Positions 584 through 45,782 of a DNA stretch of 64,000 bases are shown here, in pieces. This stretch comes from Planctomycetaceae bacterium (lineage in GTDB: Bacteria > Planctomycetota > Planctomycetia > Planctomycetales > Planctomycetaceae). The notes under the pieces are model-generated. The model did not search any database. It was not told where the DNA came from and saw nothing but the letters and a program-made list of their open reading frames with translations. Position 1 is the stretch's first letter. Every line of letters begins with the position of its first letter. The stretch is from NCBI GenBank assembly GCA_021732845.1, contig JAKFUF010000147.1, positions 1 to 64,000 of the forward strand, given 5' to 3'. Position numbers and translations under genes: made by a program.

Positions 584-725
584 AATTTCAAATCTCAAAT
601 TTCAAATTTCACAGTGCGTTTGGCTTCGTCGCACTGTCGGCCGGAGACCCTGTTCCCTGGCGTGGCGGAAAACGCTCTCGAAAATGGCATTTTACTGTGA
701 AATTTGAAATCTGAAATTTGAAATT
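584..725. repeat. CAAATTT-type palindromic element, solo copy
   Basis: Two 32-base arms (584-615 and 694-725) are inverted copies matching at 30 of 32 positions. They end inward in CACAGT/ACTGTG and enclose about 78 bases of unrelated sequence. The same arms recur near 8.1, 28.0, 32.3, 41.1-41.4 and 45.6-45.7 kb. The copy ends 39 bases before the next gene, so its transcript hairpin would form in that gene's leader. No terminal repeat of the 32.2-kb copy type is visible here. Confidence 0.85.
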
Positions 726-7775: not shown

Positions 7776-8022
7776 GGACCGGACAAAGAATAAAGCACGC
7801 TTCAAGATGCTGACCGAAGGCCGGTCTAAGGCAACGAAAAGGGGAACCACGAATTTTCACGAATAAGGCGAATGTCACGAATGGCAACGAGCAGGATTCC
7901 ATCGCCCGCGAAGCCATGCCGGTTGATGATTCGTGAAATTCGTGAAATTCGTAAGATTCGTGAAAATTCGTGGTTAATTGATGACCGTACGAGTTCCGCA
8001 CGGTCCGCTTTGTCAGCCACGT
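7776..8022 (+). mobile_element. truncated copy of the GGACCGGACAAAG element
   Basis: The left end GGACCGGACAAAGAATAA and the following 40 bases match the elements at 11068 and 32104-32662. The internal palindrome (7845-7975, arms containing AACCACGAATTTTCACGAAT) is also shared. Similarity fades near 8022, and no right terminal repeat or flanking TAA is found, so this copy appears to have lost its right end. The right boundary is approximate. Confidence 0.7.
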
Positions 8023-8075
8023 GCATGCCGATCTGCCGGAGGGTTTCGTCATTCAAATGTTGCCAAAAACTTTTT

Positions 8076-8107
8076 ACTGTGAAATTTGAAATCTGAAATT
8101 TGAAATT
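8076..8107. repeat. half copy of the CAAATTT palindrome
   Basis: Only the right arm (ACTGTGAAATTTGAAATC and onward, 32 bases) is present, identical to the right arm at 694-725. No left arm is visible in the preceding bases. It sits 37 bases before the protease start codon, next to the truncated element at 7776-8022. Confidence 0.75.
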
Positions 8108-10948: not shown

Positions 10949-11067
10949 TTCGTCGTATTACCTCGGCGTCAAACTCACTCACTTCACCACCGAGCGATTG
11001 GAATGGCTCCACGGAGTTCCCAGCATTCACAAATCGCAGTTCCGACATTTCTCGTGTCAGTGACTTA

Positions 11068-11391
11068 GGACCGGACAAAGAATAAAGCACGCTTCAAGAT
11101 GCTAACCGAAGGCCGGTCTTAGGGAACGAAAAGGGGGAACCACGAATTTTCACGAATAAGACGAATGTCACGAATAACAGCGCGCAGGATTCCATCACCC
11201 GCGAAGCCATGCCAGTTGATCATTCGTGATATTCGTAAGATTCGTGAAAATTCGTGGTTGATTTATGACCGTACGATTCCCGCACCGTTTTGCCAGCCCT
11301 GTCGACTTCACCACCAACTTCATTCGCTGTCCTTGATGGCGTTCGCTGCTGGATAGGGAGACAAATGTCACAGTTGTTTTTGCTCCGACCC
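11068..11391 (+). mobile_element. MITE-like element, TTA-flanked, full-length reference copy
   Basis: A non-coding 324-base element with related ends: GGACCGGACAAAGAATAA on the left, and a right end whose inverse reads GGGTCGGAGCAAAAACAA. TTA lies immediately outside both ends (11065-11067 and 11392-11394), as expected for a 3-base target duplication. Inside is a palindrome (11138-11259) with arms AACCACGAATTTTCACGAAT. The same element recurs inverted at 32104-32662 and truncated at 7776. It encodes no transposase, so it would depend on one elsewhere. Confidence 0.8.
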
Positions 11392-11412
11392 TTATCGGTC
11401 GTCCTCACGCAG

Positions 11413-11520
11413 TTTCGTGTTCTTCGTGCCTGTCGTGGTTGTTCCTTCACGGAATGGAATGACGGTCGATATCTCGTTCACTCCGTGAACTGAACCACGA
11501 AAGGCACGAAGAACACGAAA
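11413..11520. repeat. TTTCGTGTTCTTCGTG palindrome
   Basis: 28-base arms at 11413-11440 and 11493-11520 are near-perfect inverse copies (TTTCGTGTTCTTCGTGCC with its inverse, then GTGGTT/AACCAC) separated by about 50 bases. It begins 19 bases after the TTA-flanked element. It is non-coding and no second copy was seen in the window. Confidence 0.75.
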
Positions 11521-11650
11521 AAGTCGAACCTTGAGTCAGGTGCTCTCTGCGAATCAGAAAACGCCGAGTTCAGGGGCGTCGTGCCAGCGTAGTCTGCTGC
11601 ATCTCATCGTCCCGCGGCTCCAAACACCAACGCCGCACCCAAGTCAGTCC

Positions 11651-11775
11651 ATTCGCGTCAATTCGCGTTCATTCGCGGTTCCAACAATTCAACGGGCCGC
11701 CTCAACAGGCTTTCAAGTTTCACGGACCGTTGATCTGCAGGCAGGAACCGCGAATGAACGCGAATTGACGCGAAT
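11651..11775. repeat. ATTCGCGTCAATTCGCG palindrome with perfect 32-base arms
   Basis: Arms at 11651-11682 and 11744-11775 are exact inverse complements, each a series of ATTCGCG units ending in GGTTCC/GGAACC. The 61-base centre is unrelated. Together with the two elements to its left it fills most of the 1,082-base gap between a terminator and the converging ATP-grasp gene. The remainder (11776-11961) is A/T-rich and shows nothing recognisable. Confidence 0.85.
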
Positions 11776-11961
11776 AAGGATTCTTTATTCGGGTCCCGGA
11801 TCAGAACGGACGAGTGTCATGGGATTCCTGGTAACGACATTTTAATGTTCAGTTGTTAATAATAACGTTGACATCTCTATGAAATAGTATATTCCTTTCG
11901 TCGGGCAGATCAGATTTCTGATCATCAAGAGCAGTCGCGAGTCCCGTATTGGGGACAGACT

Positions 11962-27998: not shown

Positions 27999-28121
27999 AT
28001 TTCAAATCTCAGATTTCAAATTTCACAGTTGCTGCTGAAGGACCGAAGTCCTTATCCATTGGCATGCGAGGATGCGATCGCGAATCGCATACTGTGAAAT
28101 TTGAGCTTTAAATCTGAGATT
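27999..28121. repeat. CAAATTT-type palindromic element, solo copy
   Basis: Left arm 27999-28029 and right arm 28091-28121 are imperfect inverse copies sharing the CACAGT/ACTGTG inner ends with the other copies. The 61-base centre contains its own GCGATCGCGAATCGC palindrome. It lies between convergent genes, where it could act as a bidirectional terminator. Confidence 0.8.
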
Positions 28122-28180
28122 ATTGTGTCAACAAACTCGGCGATGCCGGCCCGCCGGTCGAAAGGCGGCAGCCAAGCCTA

Positions 28181-31185: not shown

Positions 31186-32103
31186 ATGTGTCGACTCTGG
31201 CTCACGCTGCGCTGTGGCTTGCTATCGCTGCTCCTGATGAGTGGATGGGGCTGCGCTTCGCCGATCGACTTTGAACGCACTCCGGTTGCCGCGATCGAAT
31301 CCTCGCTGGTGTTTCATCCTTCAAAATACCCCGAAGGAGATTGGACGCCCTCCAAACTGCCGGTCGAAAACGCCTGGTTCACCGCCCCCGACGGCACGCG
31401 CCTGCATGGCTGGTATGTGCGGCATCCGAAGCCCGCTGGCGTCGCCCTGTTTGCCCACGGCAACGCCGGGAACGTCACCTACTGGGCGGACACTCTGCGC
31501 ATTCTCCATCAACGGCATCATCTCACCGTGCTGGCCTTCGACTACCGTGGCTTCGGCCGCAGCGAAGGGATGCCGTCGGAGCCGGGTCTGCTTCAAGACG
31601 CCCGCGCTGCCCGCGCGTGGCTCGCCAAAGAAGAAGGAATCCAGGAACAAGACATCATCCTGATGGGCCAGTCGCTGGGCGGGGGCGTGGTGGTCGATCT
31701 GGCCGCCACGGATGGTGCCCGCGGCCTTGTTCTCGCCAGCACATTCACCTCGTTGCCCGACGTGGCTCAGGCCCACGTGCCGGCCGTGCCACGGCATTGG
31801 CTGAAAAACCGTTTCGACTCCCTGGCCAAGATCCGCAATTACCACGGTCCGCTGCTGCAGGTGCATGGCGACCAGGACCGCCTGGTGCCCTTTGCCCAGG
31901 GTCAAAAACTCTTTGCCGCCGCCAATGAGCCCAAACGCTTTGTCACTGTTCCCGGCGGCGACCACAACACGCCACTGCCGGAAGCCTATCGCCAGGCACT
32001 GGATGATTTCCTGACATCATTGCCGCCTTATCCAATCTCGGCGGCGGGACGAGCCACGGTCAGCCATAGCGCTGCGGACATTACGGAAGAGATTCAAGAA
32101 TAA
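31186..32103 (+). CDS. lipoprotein alpha/beta hydrolase (Bem46/ABHD13-like)
   Basis: A 305-residue alpha/beta hydrolase with a lipoprotein-type signal ending in WGC (residues 21-23). Serine nucleophile Ser163 lies in GQSLGGG, the acid is Asp231 (HGDQDRLVP), and His260 sits in GGDHNTPL. The oxyanion-side motif AHGNAGN is typical of Bem46-like serine esterases. The substrate is unknown. The TAA stop codon doubles as the left target-site copy of the MITE-like element that starts at the next base. Confidence 0.88.
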   Translation: MCRLWLTLRCGLLSLLLMSGWGCASPIDFERTPVAAIESSLVFHPSKYPEGDWTPSKLPVENAWFTAPDGTRLHGWYVRHPKPAGVALFAHGNAGNVTYWADTLRILHQRHHLTVLAFDYRGFGRSEGMPSEPGLLQDARAARAWLAKEEGIQEQDIILMGQSLGGGVVVDLAATDGARGLVLASTFTSLPDVAQAHVPAVPRHWLKNRFDSLAKIRNYHGPLLQVHGDQDRLVPFAQGQKLFAAANEPKRFVTVPGGDHNTPLPEAYRQALDDFLTSLPPYPISAAGRATVSHSAADITEEIQE

Positions 32104-32662
32104 GGGGCGCGGCAAAAATAACTGTGACACTTGTCTCCCGATCCAGCAGCGAACGCCATCAAGGACAGCGAATGAAGTTGGTGGTGAAGCCGACAGGGCT
32201 GGCAAAACGGTGCGGAAATCGTACGGTCGACGTGTCCGACAAAAGTTGATTTCAAATCTCAAATTTCAAATTTCAAATTTCAAATTTCACAGTCTGTGCG
32301 ACCGCATCGAACGATCGGCCATGCCTCCACAGCGAAATACGTAACTCTCGCCCGGAAGGCCAGATGTCGCGAAAAAGTATTTTACTGTGAAATTTGAAAT
32401 CTGAAATTTGAAATTGCGTTGAAACCAACAAGTGGACTTTTGTCGGACACGTCACGGTCATAAATTAACCACGAATTTTCACGAATAAGGCGAATATCAC
32501 GAATGATCAACTGGCATGGCTTCGCGGGTGATGGAATCCTGCGTGTTGTTATTCGTGACATTCGTCTTATTCGTGAAAATTCGTGGTCCCCACTTCTCGT
32601 TGCCTAACTAAGACCGGCCTTCGGTTAGCATCTTGAAGCGTGCTTTATTCTTTGTCCGGTCC
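32104..32662 (-). mobile_element. MITE-like element behind a stop codon, interrupted by a second element
   Basis: An inverted copy of the 11068-11391 element. The left end GGGGCGCGGCAAAAATAAC starts directly after the hydrolase stop TAA. The right end, read inverted, is GGACCGGACAAAGAATAA and is followed by TAA (32663-32665). Without the inserted 225-base element and its 6-base duplication the copy measures 328 bases, close to the 324-base reference. The internal AACCACGAATTTTC palindrome is at 32467-32587. Confidence 0.85.
32229..32453. mobile_element. CAAATTT element with perfect 18-bp terminal repeats and target duplication
   Basis: A 225-base element with perfect terminal inverted repeats GACGTGTCCGACAAAAGT (32229-32246 and inverted at 32436-32453). 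It is flanked by ACGGTC on both sides (32223-32228, 32454-32459). The empty site is represented by the intact copy at 11068-11391, where the sequence runs uninterrupted through one ACGGTC. Inside are the CAAATTT arms seen in the solo copies. This is the clearest evidence that the family transposes. Confidence 0.88.
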
Positions 32663-32711
32663 TAAGCCAGCACGCCTGGGTTCGAGTCACGGAGTGACTC
32701 GTCGACTTTGT

Positions 32712-32811
32712 AGCGGCTGTGCGCAAGCCCTCCGGTGAGTGCATTGTTGGTGACCGACTGCCGACTGTGAAGCGCGAAAATCAATCACCGGACGGCTTGC
32801 GCCGGGCCGCT
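32712..32811. repeat. AGCGGC-GCGCAAGCC palindrome, copy 1
   Basis: 27-base arms (32712-32738 and 32785-32811) match inverted at 23 of 27 positions, with the conserved core GCGCAAGCC(G/C)TCCGGTGA. A second member lies at 58736-58820. It lies 68 bases before the NHL gene start. Confidence 0.75.
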
Positions 32812-32879
32812 CTAACTTTCTCTTTGAACGCCGAGTCGGGATCATGAGGGGCGACATCCGCCTTTCCTGAGAGCCCGCC

Positions 32880-33992
32880 ATGCGCAGTTTCACGTTGCTT
32901 CTGATTGCCCTCACGCTGTCGGCCCCGTTCGTACTGGCTGACGAGGCGAACGACAAACCAGCCGCGTCCGGTGGAACCGTTTCGACCTTCGCTGGAACCG
33001 GAGTGAAGGGGTTTTCGGGCGACGGCGGTCCGGCGGACCGGGCGCAACTGAACAATGTCTATGGCATCGGTCGCGGTCCCGACGGCGCGCTCTACCTGTG
33101 CGACATGGACAACCACCGCATCCGCCGCGTTGCCCCCGACGGGACCATCACCACATATGCAGGCAGCGACCAGAAGGGGCATGCTGGTGACGGCGGACCG
33201 GCGACGCGAGCCACGCTCGACATGCCGTATGAGGTTGCGTGGGACCGGGACGGGAATTTGTATTTCGTGGAACTTGGCAACCATTGCGTGCGGAAGGTTG
33301 ACACCAAGTCGGGCGTCATCTCCACGGTTGTGGGCACCGGCAAGCCAGGGTTCAGCGGGGATGGCGGTCAGGCTGTCGCCGCCACAATGAGGCAGCCACA
33401 CAGCCTGGCGTTTGATGCCCAGGGGGACTTGTTCGTCTGCGACATCGGCAACCACCGCGTGCGGCAGATCGAGATGCAGACGGGTTTGATCCGAACGTGG
33501 TCGGGAACGGGGGAGGCCAAGACGGCTCCCGATGGCTCACCGATTTCCGGGTCGGCACTGCACGGTCCGCGGGCGATCGCCTTCTCATCCGATGGCACCG
33601 CGTGGCTCGCGCTCCGAGAAGGAAACGCCGTGCTGCAACTCGATCCGCGTGCGGGCACCCTCAAGCGCGCGGCTGGCACAGGGAAGTCAGGTTTCACCGG
33701 CAATGGCGGCCCGGCCCGCGAAGCAAAACTCTCCGGACCGAAAGGTGTGAGCCTGGATGCCGCTGGCAACGTTTACCTGGCCGACACCGAATCGCACACG
33801 ATCCGCTACATCGACATGCAGCGGGGAACGGTCGAACTTTTGGTGGGTGACGGCAAACGCGGCGATGGCCCCGACGGCAACCCGCTCGACTGCCAACTCG
33901 CCCGTCCCCACGGCGTCTTCGTCGACCGCGACGGCACTGTGTTCATCGGCGACAGCGAGAACCACCGGGTGCGTATTTGGCGAAAAAAGTAG
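32880..33992 (+). CDS. secreted NHL-repeat beta-propeller protein
   Basis: A 370-residue exported protein (signal MRSFTLLLIALTLSAPFVLA). About six NHL blades recur, with phrases such as FAGTGVKGFSGDGGPA, PDGALYLCDMDNHRIRRV, GNLYFVELGNHCVRKV and DLFVCDIGNHRVRQI. NHL propellers bind partners or ligands and have no catalytic residues here. The protein is probably periplasmic or surface-attached. It is preceded by repeats and followed by 361 bases without a gene. Confidence 0.87.
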   Translation: MRSFTLLLIALTLSAPFVLADEANDKPAASGGTVSTFAGTGVKGFSGDGGPADRAQLNNVYGIGRGPDGALYLCDMDNHRIRRVAPDGTITTYAGSDQKGHAGDGGPATRATLDMPYEVAWDRDGNLYFVELGNHCVRKVDTKSGVISTVVGTGKPGFSGDGGQAVAATMRQPHSLAFDAQGDLFVCDIGNHRVRQIEMQTGLIRTWSGTGEAKTAPDGSPISGSALHGPRAIAFSSDGTAWLALREGNAVLQLDPRAGTLKRAAGTGKSGFTGNGGPAREAKLSGPKGVSLDAAGNVYLADTESHTIRYIDMQRGTVELLVGDGKRGDGPDGNPLDCQLARPHGVFVDRDGTVFIGDSENHRVRIWRKK

Positions 33993-41055: not shown

Positions 41056-41400
41056 GACGTGTTCGACAAAAGCCAATTTCAAATCTCAAATCTCAAATTT
41101 CACAGTCTTTGCAGCCACACCGAACCGTCGACTGAGCTTTAAGGATCGCGGCAACAATAACATGGTGAAGTTGCTTGGGATGGACGCCGATTGAGGGCAG
41201 ATTCATCAGCCGGCTCGCGTTAGCGTCCGGTTCGTGGCGTTGGCGTCTTCCGATCATCCTCCAACTCATTGGCTGTGCGGCTCGTCAAAAATCGACAGCT
41301 ATTCTTGCTGCGGCACTAAGGGTACAAACGTAACTGTTGCCCCGCAAAGTGGATAATGCGAAGAAGCATTTTACCGTGAAATTTGAAATCTGAAATTAGA
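41056..41400. mobile_element. CAAATTT element split by a TAA-flanked element
   Basis: The left terminal repeat GACGTGTTCGACAAAAGC (41056-41073) differs from the 32.2-kb element at two positions. It is followed by CAAATTT arms, and the matching right arm (ACCGTGAAATTTGAAATC) is at 41373-41400. Between the arms lies the 174-base element 41143-41316. No right terminal repeat was found, so the right end seems decayed and the boundary is approximate. Confidence 0.75.
41143..41316 (-). mobile_element. MITE-like element with TAA flanks, short copy nested in another element
   Basis: An inverted 174-base relative of the enolase-linked element 16706-16910. Its ends read GGATCGCGGCAACAATAAC and, inverted, GTGCCGCAGCAAGAATAGC. 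TAA is immediately outside both ends (41140-41142, 41317-41319). It lacks the roughly 31-base hairpin insert present in the enolase copy. It interrupts a CAAATTT element. Confidence 0.8.
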
Positions 41401-45549: not shown

Positions 45550-45750
45550 GAGGTCTCCGACGAAAGTCGGGCGTCTTAGTTTCATGGAATTTCAGATTTC
45601 AAATTTCACAGTAAAATGCCTTTTGGCGACATTCGATTTGCAGGATGAGAGTTGCGTCACGCACTCTGGTATTGCAGACAGTTTGACACTGCTCTCCACA
45701 CTGTGAAATTCGAAATTTGAGATTTGAAATTCACTTTTGTTGGAGACCTC
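45550..45750. mobile_element. CAAATTT element with GAGGTCTCC ends
   Basis: A 201-base element. The left end GAGGTCTCCGACGAAAGT and the right end (inverted) GAGGTCTCCAACAAAAGT match at 16 of 18 positions. Both share the core TCCGACAAAAGT with the 32.2-kb element. CAAATTT arms lie at 45588-45612 and 45699-45730. No target duplication could be fixed because the flanks are themselves element-like. Confidence 0.75.
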
Positions 45751-45782
45751 AGATTTGAGATTCCACTTTTGTCGGACACGTC
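45751..45782. repeat. orphan right end of a CAAATTT element
   Basis: Immediately after the 201-base element is AGATTTGAGATTCC followed by ACTTTTGTCGGACACGTC (45765-45782), an exact copy of the right terminal repeat at 32436-32453. A decayed counterpart (CTCAAATCTC) lies left of 45550. This suggests an older element into which the 45550-45750 copy inserted. Confidence 0.65.

Follow-up and report, generated by a model that had tools for sequence, protein, structure and literature searches.

The 225-bp insert at positions 32229-32453 of a 64,000-nucleotide stretch of Planctomycetaceae DNA (this whole stretch is hereafter termed the window) belongs to a new MITE family of a known kind. The insert is short and non-coding, it has terminal inverted repeats and a fixed 6-bp target duplication, and its family is present in multiple dispersed copies. 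Very probably, it is a MITE copy that was moved in trans by an IS1182-like insertion sequence with the same 18-bp ends, in a family whose copies nest in older ones.

The unit measures exactly 225 bp. Its ends, GACGTGTCCGACAAAAGT at 32229-32246 on the forward strand and the inverted copy at 32436-32453 on the reverse strand, are 100% complementary over 18 bp, with 0 mismatches. At up to 3 mismatches, GACGTGTCCGACAAAAGT has 6 matches in the window against 0.04 expected. The hexamer ACGGTC adjoins the unit on either side (32223-32228 and 32454-32459). None of the ORFs of at least 200 aa in the mechanical ORF list overlaps the unit, and its coding capacity is at most 75 codons. A preliminary description, made from the letters alone, had reported a 225-base non-coding unit with perfect inverted ends between two ACGGTC hexamers, and this anatomy was confirmed. 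The parts of the insertion are as follows:

32223-32228, forward strand: left copy of the target duplication ACGGTC (from the sequence, the flank comparison and the alignment to the empty homologue)
32229-32246, forward strand: left terminal inverted repeat GACGTGTCCGACAAAAGT (from the end search)
32249-32289, forward strand: left heptamer array, (AAATTTC)n, containing the preferred target AAATTT
32290-32387, forward strand: core between the arms, common to CAAATTT units elsewhere in the genome
32388-32415, reverse strand: right heptamer array, (GAAATTT)n, complementary to the left arm
32416-32435, strand not assigned: 20-bp linker (type I) from the right array to the right end
32436-32453, reverse strand: right terminal inverted repeat, perfect complement of the left
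32454-32459, forward strand: right copy of the target duplication ACGGTC

The insert interrupts a high-copy host repeat, of which the window also holds an uninterrupted copy:

32113-32660, forward strand: interrupted copy of the host repeat (outside 32229-32459)
11066-11400, reverse strand: uninterrupted paralogous copy, with a single GACCGT at 11267-11272

When the filled and empty copies were aligned, a single clean gap of 231 columns was obtained, comprising the insert and one ACGGTC; the copies were otherwise nearly identical. The homologue with one ACGGTC and no insert, as reported in the preliminary description, is therefore real and lies on the opposite strand. Since the host repeat is high-copy, this "empty site" is a paralogous copy and not the same locus in another strain. 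The genome has 292 candidate places of the host repeat; the best 40 of the 292, a choice that favours uninterrupted copies and that includes the window copy, were scored and showed 89-100% identity, with all 40 alignments spanning the insertion site. The host repeat is about 330 bp long and has arms of the type ACCACGAATTTTCACGAATAAG... Two more intergenic repeats, with a periodicity of about 9 bases and inverted arms (CACGAAAGGCACGAAGAACACGAA... and GCGAATGAACGCGAATTGACGCGAAT...), lie at 11400-11800 of the window; by eye, their design is like that of the host repeat and of the CAAATTT units.

The insertion had been described as "caught in the act", which is too strong. Elsewhere in this genome, the sequences most like the insert match it at 92% identity along its whole length or at 97% across 170-184 bp. 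With the nearest full-length copy at 92%, the window's copy need not have been active recently.

The window holds further CAAATTT units, with and without ends:

585-724, forward strand: CAAATTT core palindrome; no end was found when up to 5 mismatches (up to 6 on the right side) were allowed
7983-8106, forward strand: partial CAAATTT core unit without recognisable ends
27999-28122, forward strand: CAAATTT core palindrome without recognisable ends
41056-41400, forward strand: partial copy, with a left end (2 mismatches) after CAAATTT and a split core
45550-45750, forward strand: second, more diverged family member of 201 bp, with 3 mismatches per end and flanks GGATCT/AGATTT
45765-45782, reverse strand: unpaired perfect 18-bp end adjoining the 45550 copy

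An AACATG site at 41159-41164 is empty in the window, is filled at another locus of the genome (L021) and, with one change, is filled at a second (L215).

The genome (9.25 Mb in 262 contigs) contains 183 matches to the 18-bp end at up to 2 mismatches, while a control pattern gave one. We sampled the stretches around about the first hundred of these 183 places, together with about 1.3 Mb of 20-kb stretches chosen independently of the element. A pair was defined as two neighbouring inward-facing ends with up to 4 mismatches, spanning 60-330 bp, and only innermost pairs were taken. The sampled stretches held 41 innermost inverted pairs, 35 of which measure 196-225 bp. For the 17 pairs with non-array flanks, an exact 6-bp duplication was found in 8, whereas 5000 shuffles gave a mean of 0.6 and never more than 5. 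A duplication with up to one mismatch was found in 13 (shuffled mean 1.3, maximum 6); the flanks of the other 4 differed by more than one mismatch. Among pairs with array-type flanks, 8 of 24 were exact against a shuffled mean of 4.4, and since this null is nearly as high, these duplications were not counted as evidence. When 46 pairs were considered, alternative pairings included, exact repeats of length 6 were found 17 times and of length 5 once; lengths 4, 7 and 8 were never found. The duplicated hexamers vary, with TTTACT, AATCTT, TGTTTT, AAGGTT, AAACCA and CCGCTT among them. The genome search with the 18-bp end that the preliminary description had proposed thus returned many copies with different matching 6-bp flanks.

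Many contigs of the assembly end shortly inside a copy of the 18-bp end, which leads into either of two fixed interiors, A and B. The 11 contig edges of type A are all identical over 127 bp, and the 10 of type B have 97-100% identity over 109-180 bp. A copy of the host repeat is split at ACGGTC/GACCGT between an A edge (L061) and a B edge (L082), each with one half of it, and in a second A/B pair (L068 and L067) AAGTTT is common to both edges. We infer that A and B probably bound a single element that is flanked by a 6-bp duplication. End B encodes MRHMVDPREQRLFSPFVGLFSGQA, the first 24 residues of a transposase, about 106 bp inside the end. Reading frames similar to this fragment were found in 4 of 98 other genomes (E 7e-6 to 0.007), and searches of Pfam and NCBIfam with the 24-aa N-terminal fragment gave no match.

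The middle of this partner is unassembled, and no whole autonomous copy was seen in the genome, where 21 contig edges carry the MITE's 18-bp end. A search of this genome with a relative's transposase (522 aa) gave no match, and likewise none at 1e-60. Because all 21 long ends sit at contig edges, we read the missing transposase body as a probable assembly gap. The preliminary description had predicted a transposase gene with the same ends; the start of such a gene was found, but its body is unassembled. Together, the shared-end partner and the differing, matching 6-bp flanks give good support to its proposal that a mobile element inserted into a pre-existing repeat. The likeness between MITE and partner is confined to 18-22 bp of the ends, so the MITE is not a simple deletion derivative of the partner. 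A separate 79-bp element (L090; G000 contig 44, 2662-2740), with flanks AGATTT/AAATTT, retains 52 bp of partner end B at 96%, and is apparently an extreme deletion derivative of the partner transposon.

Of 248 genomes of the class, 11 have relatives of the partner transposase at E up to 1e-60. In the relative from genome G098, the full frame is 577 aa, of which 522 aa were scanned. DDE_Tnp_1_6 (PF13751) and DDE_Tnp_1 (PF01609) were above cut-off in four relatives (G098, G261, G243 and G004), and this genome's own partner copy presumably has DDE domains as well. The best NCBIfam model for all four was IS1182, at 150-184 bits (170 bits for G098), below the curated cut-off of 270. The relatives' elements, which include lengths of 1888 and 1906 bp, bear matching ends: GACGCCTCCGACAAAAGT in G098, GACGTTTCCGACAAAAGT in G094 and GACGTCTCCGACAAAAAT in G082. 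A complete relative element of 1888 bp (L235) has the 6-bp duplication ATCAAA; at another (L237), the ends are similar and a 6-bp duplication is absent. Among the 19 relative loci, L238 has a single end, the ends of L234 sit at a contig start with no left flank, and L242 and L243 are ambiguous for duplication; a complete pair of ends was not found at L236, L239, L244, L245, L247 and L252. These loci thus contributed nothing to the duplication count. Distant cousins in G004 and G206 have the ends GACGGG(C/G)CGGCAAAAAG, and their clear cases show 7-bp duplications in 6 out of 7 and a 6-bp duplication in 1 out of 7.

Ends of this type also bound short elements in other genomes. A degenerate end with up to one mismatch was matched in 10 of 14 chosen genomes. 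It was most prominent in G082 (26 matches vs 0 in the control), while G098, G141 and G048 stood out less strongly; the others had few matches, in some cases with nearly as many in the control, as in G251 (6 matches vs 4). Twenty stretches from four genomes were read for short elements, 17 of them from G082. Twelve places of 167-168 bp in G082 have such ends, with exact 6-bp duplications at 4 of the 12; the other G082 stretches comprise one 213-bp palindrome and four stretches without any pair of ends. A 100-bp element in G098 has TAAGAA at both sides, a 168-bp element in G094 has a flank with one mismatch, and a 120-bp pair in G048 shows no duplication. By eye, the interiors of the short elements in G082, G094, G048 and G098 are unrelated to the window element and have no CAAATTT arrays; therefore, this type of end seems to acquire short passengers repeatedly. 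The 213-bp palindrome (L290; G082 contig 48, 3486-3698) is nearly perfect, lies near a contig end and consists of two inverted copies of an apparent transposon left end, possibly an assembly artefact. The single exact 18-mer in another species (a Gemmataceae MAG) was set aside, since by our own estimate chance alone would produce a handful of matches in the 257 billion bases searched.

The transposon edges show an insertion preference for AAATTT. This hexamer was found at 16 of the 21 partner edges (8/11 for A and 8/10 for B); the remaining five edges include ACGGTC, at the same host-repeat site as the window insert. By eye, another good heptamer precedes 14 of the 16 AAATTT edges. A sample of 1.384 Mb contains 235 occurrences of AAATTT, of which 89 adjoin another heptamer, and under a uniform expectation, which ignores any general A+T preference, the probability of 8 out of 11 A edges at AAATTT is near 1e-28. 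Outside the arrays, the flank base profile leans weakly to C followed by AA..TT, in a set of 248 ends of which at least 38 still have array-type hexamers. From few sites, we infer a wider AANNTT target consensus. The MITE and the transposon tend to land in older copies of the MITE's own AAATTT-filled arms, a nesting that would follow from the arms being arrays of AAATTT. Repeated rounds of insertion and loss at AAATTT might have left the 7-bp array unit, which consists of this hexamer and one further base. However, the orientation is fixed, with a C-spaced left arm and a G-spaced right arm, and this speaks for a probable origin of the arrays by slippage rather than as footprints of lost insertions.

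The preliminary description had taken the solo CAAATTT palindromes to be decayed copies of the mobile family. We examined core units in a sample of 1.264 Mb, consisting of ten 120-kb pieces chosen independently of the element and the window. Ends were found on both sides of 6 of the 39 core units, on one side of 12 and on neither side of 21. The end mismatch counts are bimodal: end-less sides lie at the level of random loci, with no graded decay. Linker similarity exceeded the 95% null on only 2 of the 32 end-less sides with a placeable boundary, one of which, the left side of C8:84379, has a plainly decayed end. The units of at least 90 bp from all the stretches fetched, which are enriched for ends, numbered 88; 17 of them had no end. 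The reading of the solo palindromes as decayed copies is thus supported only in part: gradual decay is not borne out for most of them, although they have the same core and one end is clearly decayed. Most of them point to truncation, rearrangement or a separate older palindrome family and not to simple mutational decay.

This last reading can be taken further: the CAAATTT palindrome may be an older independent repeat that was captured between transposon ends, the MITE being a shell of such ends around it and the solo palindromes never having been MITEs. We regard this as a serious contender, if somewhat short of an even chance. The chance-level flanks of the 21 end-less units and the scarcity of linker traces are what it would lead us to see, and so are the array-less, unrelated interiors that the same kind of end encloses in G082, G094, G048 and G098. 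It also draws on other genomes of the family, since the window element had matches in 13 of 70, 12 of them confined mainly to the array; the weak match in G044 lies in the core. Yet the point where end meets arm hardly varies among end-bearing copies, and the same two linkers recur there, so that one or two MITE lineages are suggested. Truncation would also produce fragments, which many of the end-less units are, and one end-less side retains a clear linker. Some end-less units have the flank GGTCAGCA in common, suggesting secondary rearrangement. Several CAAATTT units (at L060, L006, L063 and G000 contig 6 at 112925) start directly after CCGTGA(C/T)GGTCAGCA, as if flank and unit had been dispersed jointly as a composite repeat. 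Of nine array-like loci in other genomes, eight were read by eye as short heptamer arrays without core or ends. These bare (TC(A/G)(A/G)AT(T/C))n arrays (L225-L229 and L231-L233, in G029, G052, G046, G030, G056, G048, G010 and G015) belong to other genera of the same family, and the array at L226 may fall inside a reading frame.

Two other explanations bear on the window's copy itself. Instead of transposing, it could have been carried along when a larger host repeat was duplicated, or have spread as repeats recombined with one another. The host repeat has many copies, and the same position in three of them was used by three insertions: the window MITE, the transposon at L061/L082 and the MITE L194, whose hexamer differs. 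Common flanks, which according to the preliminary description would speak for segmental duplication, were seen in at least a few cases: these three insertions, and L021 and L215, which have a common flank and are probably not independent. Nevertheless, exact 6-bp duplications of differing sequence in non-array flanks lie far above the shuffled null, the window itself contains an uninterrupted copy of the host repeat, and another occupant of the same hexamer is the long transposon and not a MITE. Spread by host-repeat duplication is largely refuted by the different flanks with matching hexamers, and we consider it very unlikely. Rated lower still, and hardly credible, is the idea that the units are palindromes with a host function (a terminator or a structured RNA) that merely resemble mobile elements. 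The insert folds very stably (z = -11.8, one strand as DNA), and five of the six window copies lie outside mechanical ORFs of at least 200 aa, the exception being 585-724, which overlaps a minus-strand ORF. The strong fold, however, is given by construction by the inverted arms, no Rfam family scored above its gathering score in 31900-32900, and the duplications, the perfect ends and the partner transposon account for the anatomy. A weak Rfam match to mir-4850 in the same interval falls within the host repeat and was left aside.

Herein, we describe how transposition in trans, the reading we favour, would proceed. The mobile unit would be a short, non-coding MITE whose 18-bp ends are inverted, whose palindromic core bears heptamer arms and whose insertion duplicates 6 bp of the target. 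The DDE transposase of an IS1182-like element, present in about ten near-identical copies, would move it in trans. This transposase would cut at the GACG...CGTC ends, and the cut ends would then be joined to a staggered 6-bp target resembling AANNTT, a strand chemistry that we propose as the likely one. The 24 residues and the relatives suggest the probable identity of the partner's unassembled middle. With arms made of AAATTT arrays, old copies would present dense preferred targets, in which new MITEs and transposons would nest.

The element resembles bacterial MITEs in being short and non-coding, with ends common to a longer transposon, target duplications and many copies. It differs from them in that only the 18-22 bp of the end are common with the partner, and in that the interior is a heptamer-armed palindrome carrying the enzyme's preferred hexamer. 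REPINs, which use a tyrosine (HUH-type) transposase, are also dispersed, small and palindromic. In what the available texts describe, the REPIN/RAYT system (PMC3116915, PMC2817692) is likewise mobile DNA of this small palindromic form; here, in contrast, the relatives are of DDE type, and 18-bp inverted ends and 6-bp duplications are present. REP palindromes are known as targets of insertion sequences, according to the accessible part of the source (PMC1525189), and these also land in dispersed intergenic palindromes, but in our case the target is the transposon's own presumed non-autonomous passenger. For IS1272, of the IS1182 family, the portion of the source at hand gives a length of 1,934 bp and reports that it replaces inverted-repeat targets and leaves no target duplication (PMC5678879). 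The relatives' transposases match IS1182 best, though with scores below the family's curated cut-off, their 1888 and 1906 bp are close to the length of IS1272, and landing in palindromic repeats is common to both. Unlike IS1272, the present elements have a 6-bp duplication and an intact target, with no inverted-repeat replacement. A literature search, whose coverage excluded most subscription journals, found in the texts available no publication describing this system. The kind of this new MITE family is known, while its self-targeting landing habit is unusual.

The likely partner transposon is identified by its shared ends and by relatives across the class, and 21 contig ends of the assembly coincide with copies of its ends. 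There is good evidence for a 6-bp duplication and a target preference in an IS1182-like subgroup, a duplication that the available text of the IS1272 paper (PMC5678879) does not describe. A more doubtful possibility is that the MITE evolved as a self-made landing pad, with arms that are arrays of the transposase's ideal target AAATTT. If so, each insertion would add preferred targets, and the family would mostly hit itself and not genes. Nesting would then raise the copy number at little cost to the host. In related genomes, similar ends enclose interiors that by eye are free of such arrays, and the comparison provides a test in nature of the idea that a mobile element which carries its own preferred target can thereby spare its host.
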